From a virus, in IMG/VR virus record IMGVR_UViG_3300033571_008636, positions 1-23,134 of that record: a DNA stretch of 23,134 nt; one strand, given 5' to 3'. This document shows positions 4,185 through 23,134 of this stretch, in pieces (the stretch's first letter is position 1; each line of letters begins with the position of its first letter). A program made the position numbers and the translations under genes. The notes beneath the pieces are model-generated. The model made no database searches. It was not told the DNA's origin and saw nothing but the letters and a program-made list of their open reading frames with translations.

Positions 4185-4460
4185 ATGCCGTACGTAAACA
4201 AACCGCGTCCGTACAAGAAAGAGTACCAGCAGCAACTTGCCCGGGGGGAAACAGCCTCTCGCCGCAAGCGAGAGCAAGCCCGTGACCTGTACGACCGTGA
4301 AGGTATTGACCGCAAGGGTAAGGACATCGACCATGAGGTGCCGCTCAGCAAAGGCGGCAGCGCCGGTAAAAGTAATCTGCGGTTGAAATCACCCTCACAG
4401 AACAGATCGTTCAGTCGCAACAGCGACCACACTGTGAAGGTGAACAAACCAAAGAAGTGA
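4185..4460 (+). CDS. Small HNH endonuclease-like protein, 91 aa
   Basis: The motif IDHEVPLSKGG (48-58; Asp49-His50) is followed by NLRL (Asn64) and SQNRS (Asn73). This matches the HNH beta-beta-alpha core with Asn in the last position. No zinc-binding CxxC pairs are present. The N terminus is very basic (KKEYQQQLARGETASRRKRE), suiting DNA contact. Start at 4185: GGAAGG at 4171-4176 lies 8 nt upstream, and the gene begins 2 bp after the nuclease stop; an in-frame start at 4107 would overlap the nuclease gene. Possible roles are packaging-associated nicking, recombination or homing. It sits directly beside a structured gene-free region, which makes the homing option worth testing. Confidence 0.82.
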   Translation: MPYVNKPRPYKKEYQQQLARGETASRRKREQARDLYDREGIDRKGKDIDHEVPLSKGGSAGKSNLRLKSPSQNRSFSRNSDHTVKVNKPKK

Positions 4461-4529
4461 GCATCACGAATACACAGCCCGTAATGCGTGAGTGGGGCTG
4501 TGGGGGCTGTACTTTGTTTACCCTCTAAA

Positions 4530-4806
4530 CCGCGCAAGATACTGACGGCTCCTCCCCTTTCGGCTGGGCAGTATCGGACACCTCGGAAAGACGAGGACTA
4601 ACACGCATGGGGATTGGCGAGCCGCGAGACGTGGCGGCGACCAACAGGCACATCGCCTGAGTTCAGTCCCCAGCCGTGTTGGTGTCACCAGAACACTGGT
4701 TTGCCTAAAACCTGAACCGGGCCGGTGAGGGGGAGGCAAGTGTAAAAGGGTGATTGATCGTCACCTGCCCAAGCCCGGCGTGTGCCCCTCCTCTGAGGCC
4801 CGGCCA
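4530..4806 (+). ncRNA. Candidate structured RNA or helicase leader in the 418-bp gap
   Basis: Between the HNH and helicase genes (4461-4878) no convincing ORF exists, but inverted repeats are dense. Seen directly: GATACTG/CAGTATC (4538-4544/4569-4575); CCTCG/CGAGG (4581-4585/4592-4596); AACACG..TGGGGA/TCCCCA..CGTGTT (4600-4613/4667-4680, 12 pairs with a 2x2 internal loop), enclosing hairpins TTGG-GCCGC/GCGGC-CCAA (4614-4644) and CAGGC/GCCTG (4645-4659); ACCAG/CTGGT (4687-4691/4696-4700); TTGCCT/AGGCAA (4701-4706/4734-4739); GGTGA/TCACC (4749-4753/4761-4765); and a possible long-range CCGGGCC/GGCCCGG (4717-4723/4797-4803). The central element is a closed three-way junction. The strand is assumed to follow the flanking operon. 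No match to a known RNA class is claimed. The flanks 4461-4529 and 4807-4878 show little beyond the helicase ribosome site. Confidence 0.45.
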
Positions 4807-4878
4807 CGGCACCAACAACCTATCTCCATCGTGGATTCCACTTTGGAGTGATACCTCATTGCCCATCGGAGAAAAACA

Positions 4879-6444
4879 ATGGAAATCGTGGAAGGTAAGG
4901 CACTCAAGCTGCGCCTGAGAAACCCCCACAAGGTCCTCAGCGTGATCCCCAAAAGTGCCTTGGTCGAAGACGGCCCTATCAGCACAGTGCTGGTCAAGTG
5001 GGGGCTGGAAGAAGCACAGGTCTTGAAAAACCTCAAGATCAAGAACGTGCCCTCGCCCATCATTGGCAAGTACAAATGGCCCGGTATCTACGAGCCGTTC
5101 TTCCATCAGAAGCAAACCGCAGCGTTCCTTACTCTGCACAGGCGGGCCTTCTGCTTCAACGAACCCGGTACAGGCAAGACGCTCTCAGTGACCTGGGCCG
5201 TGGACTACCTGATGAACCTCAAGTACATCAAGCGTGTGCTGGTCATCTGCCCCCTGTCCATCATGCAGTCGGCGTGGCAGGCCGACATCTTCAAAGGGGC
5301 CATGCACCGCAAGGTGGGTATCGCGCACGGCTCACGCGCCAAGCGAGAGCAGGTCATCAACTCCGATGCTGAGTTCGTCATCATCAACTTCGATGGTGTA
5401 GGTGTGGTGGAAGACGCCATTGCCAACGCGGGGTTTGACCTGATCGTGATCGATGAAGCCAATGCCTACAAGACCGCCACCACTACACGCTGGAAGACGC
5501 TCAACCGCATCCTCAAACCAAACATGTGGTTATGGATGCTCACCGGAACTCCAGCCTCGCAGTCACCTCTGGACGCATATGGCTTGGCTAAGCTGGTCAA
5601 CCCATCGGATACACCCCGCAGCTCTACGATGTACCGCGACCAAGTGATGCACAAAATCACGCAGTTCAAGTGGGCTCCCAAGGTAGACGCCAACGCAATG
5701 GTCAGCAGGTTATTGCAGCCAGCAATCAGGTTCACCAAAGAGCAATGTCTGGACCTACCGGACATGCTGTACACCATACGCGAAGTACCACTGACCCCGC
5801 AGCAAATCAAGTACTACGAGCAGTTGCGCAAGCAGATGGTCATGCAGGCCGCAGGAGAGGAAGTCACGGCAGTCAACGCCGCAGCCAAGCTCAACAAGCT
5901 GCTGCAAGTCTCATGTGGTGCGGTGTACTCAGACAATGGTGAGGTAGTGACGTTCGACGCTAGCAACCGCACGGCGGTACTCAAGGAAGTCATTGAAGAG
6001 TCCACCAACAAGGTGCTGGTGTTTGTGCCGTACCGCCACGCCATCGAGATTTTGTACGACGAATTACGCAAAGCAAACATCACTGCGGCCATGATCCACG
6101 GCGGGGTCTCCGCAGGCAGGCGCACGGAAATCTTTCGACAGTTCCAAGAGCAGGCTGACCCTAGGGTGCTCATCATCCAACCGCAAGCCGCGTCACACGG
6201 TGTCACCTTACACGCAGCCAACACGGTGGTGTGGTGGGGGCCGATCACTTCCTATGAGACGTACGCACAGGCAAACGCACGGGTCCATCGTGCGGGGCAG
6301 AAGAACAAGTGCCTCGTGGTCAAGTTGCAAGGCAGTCCCGTCGAGGCCAAGCTGTACAAGGCGCTGGACTCCAAAGAGTCAGCCCAGATGAACTTGATGG
6401 AACTTTACAAAGACACGCTGCAAGAAAGCGAGGCCCCTACTTGA
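4879..6444 (+). CDS. SNF2-family (superfamily 2) DNA helicase/translocase
   Basis: The 521-aa protein carries the helicase motifs in order: motif Q-like FHQKQTAAF (75-83), Walker A NEPGTGKT (94-101), motif Ia-like VLVICPLSIM (120-129), Walker B IDEAN (191-195, DEAN rather than DEAH), motif III LTGTP (221-225), the second RecA lobe with VLVFVPY (379-385), and motif VI QANARVHRAGQ (464-474). The ARVHRAGQ form is typical of SNF2/SWI2 ATPases, which in phages are thought to help replication fork or recombination intermediates. Length and single-domain layout are typical of phage copies. The start ATG follows GGAG at 4868-4871 and the long structured gap. The stop TGA overlaps the -35 box of a predicted promoter. 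Confidence 0.95.
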   Translation: MEIVEGKALKLRLRNPHKVLSVIPKSALVEDGPISTVLVKWGLEEAQVLKNLKIKNVPSPIIGKYKWPGIYEPFFHQKQTAAFLTLHRRAFCFNEPGTGKTLSVTWAVDYLMNLKYIKRVLVICPLSIMQSAWQADIFKGAMHRKVGIAHGSRAKREQVINSDAEFVIINFDGVGVVEDAIANAGFDLIVIDEANAYKTATTTRWKTLNRILKPNMWLWMLTGTPASQSPLDAYGLAKLVNPSDTPRSSTMYRDQVMHKITQFKWAPKVDANAMVSRLLQPAIRFTKEQCLDLPDMLYTIREVPLTPQQIKYYEQLRKQMVMQAAGEEVTAVNAAAKLNKLLQVSCGAVYSDNGEVVTFDASNRTAVLKEVIEESTNKVLVFVPYRHAIEILYDELRKANITAAMIHGGVSAGRRTEIFRQFQEQADPRVLIIQPQAASHGVTLHAANTVVWWGPITSYETYAQANARVHRAGQKNKCLVVKLQGSPVEAKLYKALDSKESAQMNLMELYKDTLQESEAPT

Positions 6445-21834: not shown

Positions 21835-23134
21835 TTAACCTCGTTGCTGAAGCATTTCCAGCAGTTCATCTATCGAGCCGCCAACCGCCATTTTAGGACC
21901 AGCAGTGTTCGGTGCAAAGGGGTCAGTTTGAAGTGGTTTGGTCCAGTCAAACGGCACTACGACCTCCTCAGGTACTGCTTCTTCCTCCGCAGGGGGTTGC
22001 TGCCCCCCGGACATTAAAGCCAACAACGCCAAAAGACCGTTGAAGTCCGCCCCTTGGCGACCCATACCCGTAGCGGTGCTTGTATTCCTAGTGGTGCCAG
22101 TGTTCGTAGAGGTGCCAGTGTTCGTAGAGGTGCCCGTACCCGTGGTGGTACCTGTGGTGGTACCCGTGCTCAACAAGGCATCGATGGCGTCTTTCTCGCC
22201 CTGCCCAACTTCCGCAGATGACAGCCCAAGCAGCGCGTCGTCGTTTATGGCATCAACTTCACTTTGACCGGCTTCCGCAGATGACAGCCCGAGCAATGGA
22301 TCGTCCTCAATGTCGGTGTCCGGAGGCAGGTCGTTGTAGTCACCCTCAATGACTGTCGGCTCTTCAGGGGGCAGCGTATTTAGGATTTCATCCAGAGTAG
22401 GCTCAGGCTCAGGCACCGGCTCAGGCTCAGGCTCAGGCTCAGGTAGAGGTTCCGGCTCAGGTAGAGGTTTCGGCTCAGGCTCAGGCAGAGGTTTCGACTC
22501 AGGCTCAGGCAGGGGTTCCGGCTCAGGCGTCAGCGTATTGAGGATTTCGTCCAGAGTAGGCGGCTCAGGCTCAAGCACCGGCTCAGGCAGGGGTTCCGGC
22601 TCAGGTAGGGGTTCCGGCTCAGGCAGGGGTTCCGGCTCAGGCAGGGGTTCCGGCTCAGGTAGGGGTTCCGGCTCAGGCAGGGGTTCCGGCTCAGGCAGGG
22701 GTTCCGGCTCAGGCACCGGCTCAGGCACCGGCTCAGGCACCGGCTCAGGGGGCAGCGTATTGAGAATTTCATCCAGAGTAGGCGGCTCAGGCACCGGTTC
22801 AGGCACCGGTTCAGGCAGGGGTTCAGGCAGGGGTTCAGGCAGGGGTTCAGGCAGGGGTTCAGGCAGGGGTTCAGGCAGGGGTTCAGGCTCAGGCAACGGC
22901 TCTGCGCCCATAATCTCTTTGATAAAGTCTTCCAGAGTTTGCGGCTCAGGCTCCACTACCGTAGGCTCAGGCTCCACTACCGTAGGCTCAGGCTCCACTA
23001 CCGTAGGCTCACCCGTAATTTCTTTGATGAAATCTTCTAGCGTTTGCGGCTCAGGGGTAGGCTCAGGGGTAGGCTCAGGGGTAGGCTCAGGGGTAGGCTC
23101 AGGGGTAGGCTCAGGGGTAGGCTCAGGGGTAGGC
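21835..23134 (-). CDS. Pro-Glu repeat protein with repeated amphipathic motifs (N terminus missing)
   Basis: The frame is open to the window edge, so a GTG at 22998 is not the true start; about 432 residues are visible. From the edge: (PEPT)n, TLEDFIKEI, three PEPTVVE units, [17 protein letters not shown] rods, three TLDEILNTL copies separated by PE-rich rods, two copies of LLGLSSAE-type segments, a Thr/Gly run ([14 protein letters not shown]), and a C-terminal domain ending [18 protein letters not shown] rods are extended and stiff, so this resembles a spacer protein presenting short helices. It is first in the visible minus-strand run, 2 bp before the 671-aa gene. The family is not recognised. 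Its very acidic, repetitive make-up suggests a fibre-like or scaffold-like virion component, which is inference. Confidence 0.8.
22580..22741 (-). repeat. 18-bp tandem array (7 copies) followed by 12-bp array (3 copies)
   Basis: On the plus strand GGCTCAGGCAGGGGTTCC repeats seven times (22580-22705), two copies having T for C, then GGCTCAGGCACC repeats three times (22706-22741). They encode PEPLPE-type and PEPV units on the minus strand. The near-identity at DNA level points to recent expansion by slippage or recombination. Confidence 0.93.
22808..22879 (-). repeat. 12-bp tandem array, 6 copies
   Basis: GGTTCAGGCAGG repeats six times without mismatch on the plus strand and encodes PLPE units on the minus strand. 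Confidence 0.92.
22943..23005 (-). repeat. 21-bp tandem array, 3 copies
   Basis: The unit beginning GGCTCAGGCTCCACTACCGT (plus an A) repeats three times exactly and encodes PTVVEPE on the minus strand. It is a third unit length in the same gene. Confidence 0.92.
23048..23134 (-). repeat. 12-bp tandem array running off the window edge
   Basis: GGCTCAGGGGTA repeats seven times exactly (23048-23131) and continues into the edge. It encodes PEPT units on the minus strand. Total copy number cannot be known from this window. Confidence 0.92.

Follow-up and report, generated by a model that had tools for sequence, protein, structure and literature searches.

The window analysed here is a stretch of 23,134 nt from a viral contig in IMG/VR. 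Within it, a gap of 418 nt on the + strand separates the stop codon of one gene at 4460 from the ATG of the next at 4879. The downstream gene (4879-6444) encodes a SNF2-family DNA helicase, matching Pfam PF00176 (7e-23) and phrog_62 (5e-104). The upstream gene (4185-4460) encodes a 91-aa protein that matched no Pfam family; its sole match was phrog_4590, a family without annotated function. An earlier note made from the sequence alone had placed the gap between HNH and SNF2 genes. The SNF2 assignment holds but the HNH label is a guess from a DH...N...NRS pattern. A coding reading of the gap was rejected because its length differs among relatives by non-multiples of three, and frames within the insertion described below contain stop codons or are not conserved. 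The region is thus gene-free, as the note had proposed, with no conserved reading frame in the gaps of relatives.

The + strand of the gap folded better than 100 of 100 dinucleotide shuffles (z -3.35), the - strand less well against its shuffles (z -1.59). The earlier note had described an outer stem, an internal loop, an inner stem, two inner hairpins and two adjacent hairpins, at a density hard to attribute to chance. All of these are present, the adjacent hairpins near 4687-4700 and 4749-4766, and the folding check bears out the density. It had also argued that terminators do not explain the hairpins, and we agree: an intrinsic terminator or attenuator (a G+C-rich hairpin followed by a U run) was rejected, as no terminator-like site was found on the + strand of the window.

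Scanning IMG/VR with the helicase returned 80 loci. The gap measures 180-198 nt in 31 close relatives, at 82-88% helicase identity, and contains hairpins with two-sided changes; RNAalifold on these gaps placed two-sided changes at 21 of 41 pairs. Covariation among homologous gaps, named in the note as a check on its RNA reading, was thus found. Comparison with L001 and 30 other relatives by blastn and alignment revealed an insertion of approximately 227 nt at 4597-4823 of the window: L001 aligns at 4476-4596 and resumes from 4824. The bulk of the folding signal of the gap comes from this insertion (z -3.76, better than 200 of 200 shuffles), which folds better on the + than on the - strand. By contrast, folding of the conserved core at 4470-4596 does not exceed that of its shuffles (z -0.23). 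This lack of excess arises because the core is partly a pseudoknot, and proof comes instead from covariation. The three-way junction of the window sits inside the insertion. These results indicate that the gap is untranslated RNA made of two families, which we call element 1 and element 2. Of the single RNA with a three-way-junction core previously proposed, the RNA therefore stands whilst the junction belongs to an inserted modular element and not to the conserved leader. As read from the alignments that follow, comparison shows that both elements fold as RNA on the transcript strand, that compensatory change maintains these folds and that both are widespread, with relatives in more than 100 uncultivated phages.

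Element 1 (4473-4596, + strand) consists of P1, a loop pseudoknot, P2, P3 and P4. P1 begins 12 nt after the upstream stop codon and pairs 4473-4480 with 4495-4502 (8 bp) around the loop GUAAUGCGUGAGUG (4481-4494); all of its pairs show two-sided changes in relatives. The loop follows the consensus GUnA-GGUGUG-[A/G]GUG, in which the six central bases pair with CRCACC directly 5' of P3. In the window this pseudoknot joins UGCGUG (4485-4490) to CGCGCA (4531-4536). Between its strands, alignments place P2 (4503-4523), a short G/C hairpin of the form GGG..CCC, followed by a conserved AAC at 4528-4530. P3, supported by covariation, pairs 4538-4544 with 4569-4575 (7 bp) and carries CCUUUC in its loop at 4556-4561. 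P4 comes last, a hairpin CCUCG-GAAAGA-CGAGG at 4581-4596 that also precedes element 2 in other phages. P3 has at least 5 bp in 67 of 67 representatives, in a fixed register beside the pseudoknot in nearly all of them, and CCUUUC occurs within its loop in 26 of 64 (0.8 expected). The P3 loop was also considered as a mask for the ribosome-binding site, a reading rejected because the observed duplexes were weaker than permuted pairs.

Members of element 1 were gathered by motif scans and the covariance models R1 and R2. Because the motif scans fixed most of the pseudoknot letters, a set derived from the helicase alone provides the fair test of the pseudoknot. In this set 93.0% of base-pair cells were paired, against 63.2 +/- 1.3% in shuffled and 31-46% in slid controls, and there were 165 two-sided cells against 51 shuffled. 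Two-sided changes fell at 18 of 20 pairs, including P1 and P3. For the pseudoknot itself, 98% of cells were paired and five of six pairs had two-sided changes. A collection of 35 diverse motif-selected members gave a matching picture, with 92.8% of cells paired (69.3% shuffled) and 181 two-sided cells (61 shuffled). The pseudoknot of the window is accompanied in the family by forms such as GGUGUG/CGCACC, GGUAUG/CAUACC (L387), GAUGUG/CGCAUC (L018) and GGCAUG/CAUGCC (L074). Model R2, trained with the window left out, found element 1 at 4468-4576 with E = 2e-14. A further coupling was seen between P1 loop position 7 and the first 3' base of the pseudoknot (4491 and 4531 in the window), where A goes with C and G with U in nearly all members; later scans fixed both letters. 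The pattern points to a base triple, or else to an isosteric A.C/G.U contact.

This topology recalls the pistol ribozyme, in which bases of the P1 loop pair with the strand at the left shoulder of the helix that follows (PMC4604425). Element 1 has the same P1-loop connection, to the left shoulder of P3, together with conserved unpaired residues and a phage context, so that a self-cleaving RNA cutting between cistrons could be imagined. However, the element 1 alignments revealed no helix enclosing P3 in the manner of pistol P2, the P3 internal loop is variable and the conserved residues differ from the 10 of pistol. Five members searched against Rfam at E <= 10 gave only chance matches far below the cut-off, with no ribozyme amongst them. 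Self-processing, one of the possibilities raised in the earlier note, thus finds no support, and we regard a pistol-like ribozyme as very improbable.

Scores of phage contigs have element 1 flanked by the same two genes, with strand and order preserved. For the two commonest pseudoknot motifs, 186 of 190 matches (not deduplicated) adjoin the helicase and/or phrog_4590 gene; the other four have a short P1 of 4-5 bp. The phrog_4590 gene is present 5' of the RNA in most relatives. Twelve loci have a different upstream gene with the helicase still downstream, and in about 20 an extra ORF or element 2 units separate element 1 from the helicase. A third pseudoknot type, GGCGUG/CGCGYC, was not beside the helicase in 27 of 75 matches, a few of which are weak and may be chance. 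Other settings also occur. Element 1 follows SNF2 and precedes the next gene in L561 and L574, again follows SNF2 in L566, and precedes an unrelated gene in the L562 group. In L552, L609 and others it precedes element 2, tRNA-Met and a terminase-like gene. Two variations in gene content were noted besides: in L127, L135, L194, L198, L206 and others the space between element 1 and the helicase holds a small ORF of some 70 aa (MKKNEFEALLKLQDRYLLMCEV...) that matched no Pfam family, and in L208, L234, L239 and similar loci phrog_4590 is replaced by a gene that, by sequence reading, resembles a 2-oxoglutarate-dependent dioxygenase.

A sigma70-like promoter site ends 7-58 nt 5' of the motif in 26 of 64 representatives, compared to four expected across the whole region. 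In L538, a terminator and a promoter-like site immediately precede element 1. The window and its nearest clade showed no promoter-like site 5' of element 1, indicating that element 1 is intercistronic there. In the majority of loci no more than about 25-30 nt, and no terminator, separate element 1 from a ribosome-binding site, and most helicase loci have element 1 only, without element 2. Helicase loci lacking element 1 often have a promoter and the hairpin P5 (see below) at that position. Because element 1 lies on the strand of its neighbours, with promoters 5' in many loci and ribosome-binding sites 3', it is probably a cis-acting leader. This conserved hairpin-pseudoknot domain opens an untranslated stretch; it would fold as RNA polymerase exits the upstream gene or promoter and act on its own transcript. 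The gene that comes next is not always the same one, which makes some general influence on the transcript likelier than a switch dedicated to the helicase. The likeliest such action would be to help polymerase through an untranslated or terminator-bearing region, by antitermination or increased processivity, with modulation of translation of the next gene as the second choice; even as first choice, the antitermination step is a tentative and rather doubtful proposal. Against the leader reading count the missing promoter-like site in the window and its nearest clade, and the roughly 20 loci where an ORF or element 2 units intervene before the helicase. In the window, element 1 may serve the SNF2 helicase operon, and the insertion would lengthen the leader with all element 1 helices intact. 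To this reading as a whole, a two-family untranslated RNA in which element 1 is a cis leader, with antitermination as its likeliest action, we assign a probability of roughly 0.5.

The HK022 put RNA offers a precedent. It is a phage antiterminator leader of two stem-loops and about 70 nt, which can directly follow a promoter and suppresses termination via the zinc-binding domain of the RNA polymerase beta' subunit (PMC9378689). Element 1 is of similar size, and a promoter-like site precedes it in 26 of 64 representatives, though not in the window; a shared working mode is possible. No pseudoknot is described in the two stem-loops of put, whereas element 1 combines P1, P2 and P3 with a covarying pseudoknot; the two have no sequence or Rfam relation.

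Element 1 might alternatively be a riboswitch or autogenous operator, its pseudoknot binding a metabolite or the SNF2 protein to control helicase translation. As in riboswitch leaders, a conserved pseudoknotted domain lies 5' of a ribosome-binding site. The tight SNF2 linkage in the two commonest pseudoknot classes, and the position of P5 just 5' of the ribosome-binding site, are consistent with this. However, element 1 is not tied to one gene or pathway as riboswitches are, preceding unrelated genes and following SNF2 in the three loci listed above, the helicase also occurs without it, and no Rfam riboswitch matched. A riboswitch or operator is therefore improbable in our view. Control of the helicase by the leader, as suggested in the earlier note, is plausible but not specific, since element 1 also stands beside other genes.

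Element 2 is a modular unit that, on our favoured reading of the window, has been inserted downstream of P4 and upstream of P5, the leader hairpin of the helicase. It is missing from the nearest relative, at 88% helicase identity, whilst related insertions occupy the equivalent position in L327, L318 and L095; the first sign of these was a weak blastn match to L327. An exact 26-mer of the window insertion was not found elsewhere. Each unit consists of an A hairpin followed by a B unit (UGGUG..CACCA) and often by the next A hairpin. The A hairpin of the window (4601-4679, + strand) has an outer stem ACACG/CGUGU (4601-4605 with 4675-4679), a CAU/AGC internal loop and an inner stem GGGGAUUG/CAGUCCCC (4609-4616 with 4664-4671), which encloses a variable three-way-junction module at 4617-4663. 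The family consensus is ACACG-CAU-GGGGAUUG ... CAGUCCCC-AGY-CGUGU with a variable interior. The B unit (4680-4814, + strand) is closed by UGGUG/CACCA, holds inner hairpins at 4687-4700 and 4750-4766, and has a homologous module in L482.

A motif scan of viral contigs found at least 118 A hairpins in at least 89 loci. Among the matches listed, 21 loci have two to four copies, 104 of 118 A hairpins are followed by a closed B unit, and 102 of 112 distinct A hairpins have at least seven of eight inner-stem pairs complementary, the scan having left the inner letters open. Eighteen different inner stems occur among these listed matches, including GGGG/CCCC, GAGG/CCUC, GGAG/CUCC, GAAG/CUUC, GGGU/ACCC and GCGG/CCGC. 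The 100% pairing given by a separate A-hairpin stem test should not stand alone, as it is inflated by the choice of rows for pairing; the open-letter test is unbiased. Model R3, trained without the window, found the A hairpin at 4600-4684 with E = 5e-12. The three-way-junction module of the window recurs in L466, L477 and L498, where its hairpin CAGGC/GCCUG becomes CAAGC/GCUUG or CAGAC/GUCUG with the ACAUC or AUAUC loop conserved. The inner modules are thus recurrent and exchangeable, and two module types were found in both A and B sockets.

Arrays of element 2 reach four units. They lie directly 5' of tRNA genes in L448, L458, L466 and L517, and others precede genes whose products look, by their first residues, like TerS, TerL or Cro-type proteins. 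Seven TerS-type loci have both elements, mostly with tRNA-Met, and L538, L545 and L600 combine element 1, P4 and element 2 at a site apart from the helicase gene. A third structured piece, AAGCCGTTAAGTC ... GACTTAACGGCTTTTTTGTTTTCCAC ... CCGTACTCCGCACGATAGCAAGCACC, recurs 3' of the arrays in L448, L458, L466, L524, L538 and L545, with a promoter-like site before it. In L442, L445, L450, L489 and L519, a P4-type hairpin with the loop GGAAAGA lies directly 5' of the first A hairpin without element 1. As P4 occurs before element 2 in this way, it behaves as if it were part of the modular system. There is in our judgement about an even chance that the whole forms a modular non-coding RNA system: a pseudoknot head (element 1), a P4 adapter and arrays of A and tRNA-like B sockets whose fixed outer stems hold exchangeable modules, transcribed beside tRNA genes or as leaders of phage genes. 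The gap of the window would then hold the head and one unit.

Such a system could also work in trans. GOLLD and ROOL, for comparison, are thought to act as RNAs in the infected cell. Both are structured non-coding RNAs from phages and prophages that often lie close to tRNA islands (PMC12286853), and element 2 arrays likewise lie near tRNA genes in some contigs. GOLLD and ROOL each have one large fixed fold, whereas element 2 comes as arrays of small units whose outer stems are fixed and whose interiors vary. In a trans-acting scheme, element 1 would head a modular RNA that is released or stands alone, the helicase locus being one place that encodes it. We consider a GOLLD/ROOL-like RNA the main rival because of the stand-alone and tRNA-linked composites: the three loci with all parts away from the helicase, the TerS-type loci with both elements, and the arrays of up to four units including those before tRNA genes. 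By contrast, element 1 mostly lies close to a ribosome-binding site with no intervening terminator, and at most helicase loci it occurs alone. A trans-acting RNA is thus possible though on balance unlikely, and we continue to favour a cis-acting leader.

The conserved ends, variable interiors and tandem arrays of element 2, and the absence of the insertion from the nearest relative, would also fit a DNA-level signal such as a recombination hot spot, origin or packaging site, with units as cassettes recombined at their conserved ends. However, the stems commonly contain and tolerate G-U and U-G pairs, most arrays share the strand of the genes next to them, and the + strand folds better. The G-U pairs and the strand bias of arrays and fold instead fit an RNA, and a DNA signal appears remote. 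The integron attC 3' core is GTTRRRY at the end of a hairpin. An attC site was rejected here, as the A hairpin ends in GTTGGTG with T at the sixth base.

Some B units resemble tRNA, having an acceptor-like closing stem and D-arm-like and T-arm-like parts, and one (L447) reaches the Rfam tRNA score (39.3 bits). Unlike tRNA, most B units, that of the window included, lack an anticodon arm and are unrecognised by ARAGORN or Rfam. Neither program found a tRNA in the window or insertion.

We also searched for known families. The whole window had no match at gathering score in Rfam 15, in keeping with the candidate new phage RNA proposed earlier. In 13 loci with element 2 arrays, Rfam gathering scores gave no GOLLD or ROOL and only tRNA and int-alpA RNA. 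Searches by blastn of isolate phages (50,697 records) and plasmids (72,556 records) returned no credible match to either element, and the covariance model found no element 1 at the loci of the nearest isolate helicases (Rollin, RHph_TM3_14A and Xp15). The sole motif match in a bacterial genome, a cyanobacterial MAG (L202), was judged chance because its P1 is weak and neither the helicase nor phrog_4590 adjoins it. The literature searched, with most subscription journals outside its scope, held no description of either element. Both elements thus appear new as RNA families and in their modular layout, whilst the mechanism could still prove a known one; structured phage RNAs without established function, such as GOLLD and ROOL, are already a known category. 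Two RNA folds with strong support from evolution lie inside operons that are common in phages, and yet neither Rfam 15, the isolate-phage collection nor the literature searched contains them. Element 1 is a compact target for structure probing and for antitermination or translation assays. For element 2, the larger question is how phages benefit from arraying standard frames, hairpin and tRNA-like, that carry differing modules, in some cases beside tRNA genes. If the arrays are decoys, scaffolds or leaders, they would represent a component of phage RNA biology not shown by any cultivated model.

P5 (4824-4848, + strand; CUCCA..UGG/CCA..UGGAG) lies just 5' of the ribosome-binding site GGAG at 4868-4871. 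It is conserved in close relatives, and 33 of 67 representatives have a hairpin of at least 8 bp in a similar position. Only 15% have at least five U within 8 nt after the hairpin, with no consistent U-tract. Given this, and its presence in half of the representatives, a simple terminator switch is unlikely. P5 has short loops (AGACC, ACA or AUU) and also occurs in helicase loci without element 1. It may function as an operator in its own right. Elsewhere in the window, a - strand ORF at 21835-22998 encodes 387 aa with long repeats, probably a low-complexity virion-associated protein.
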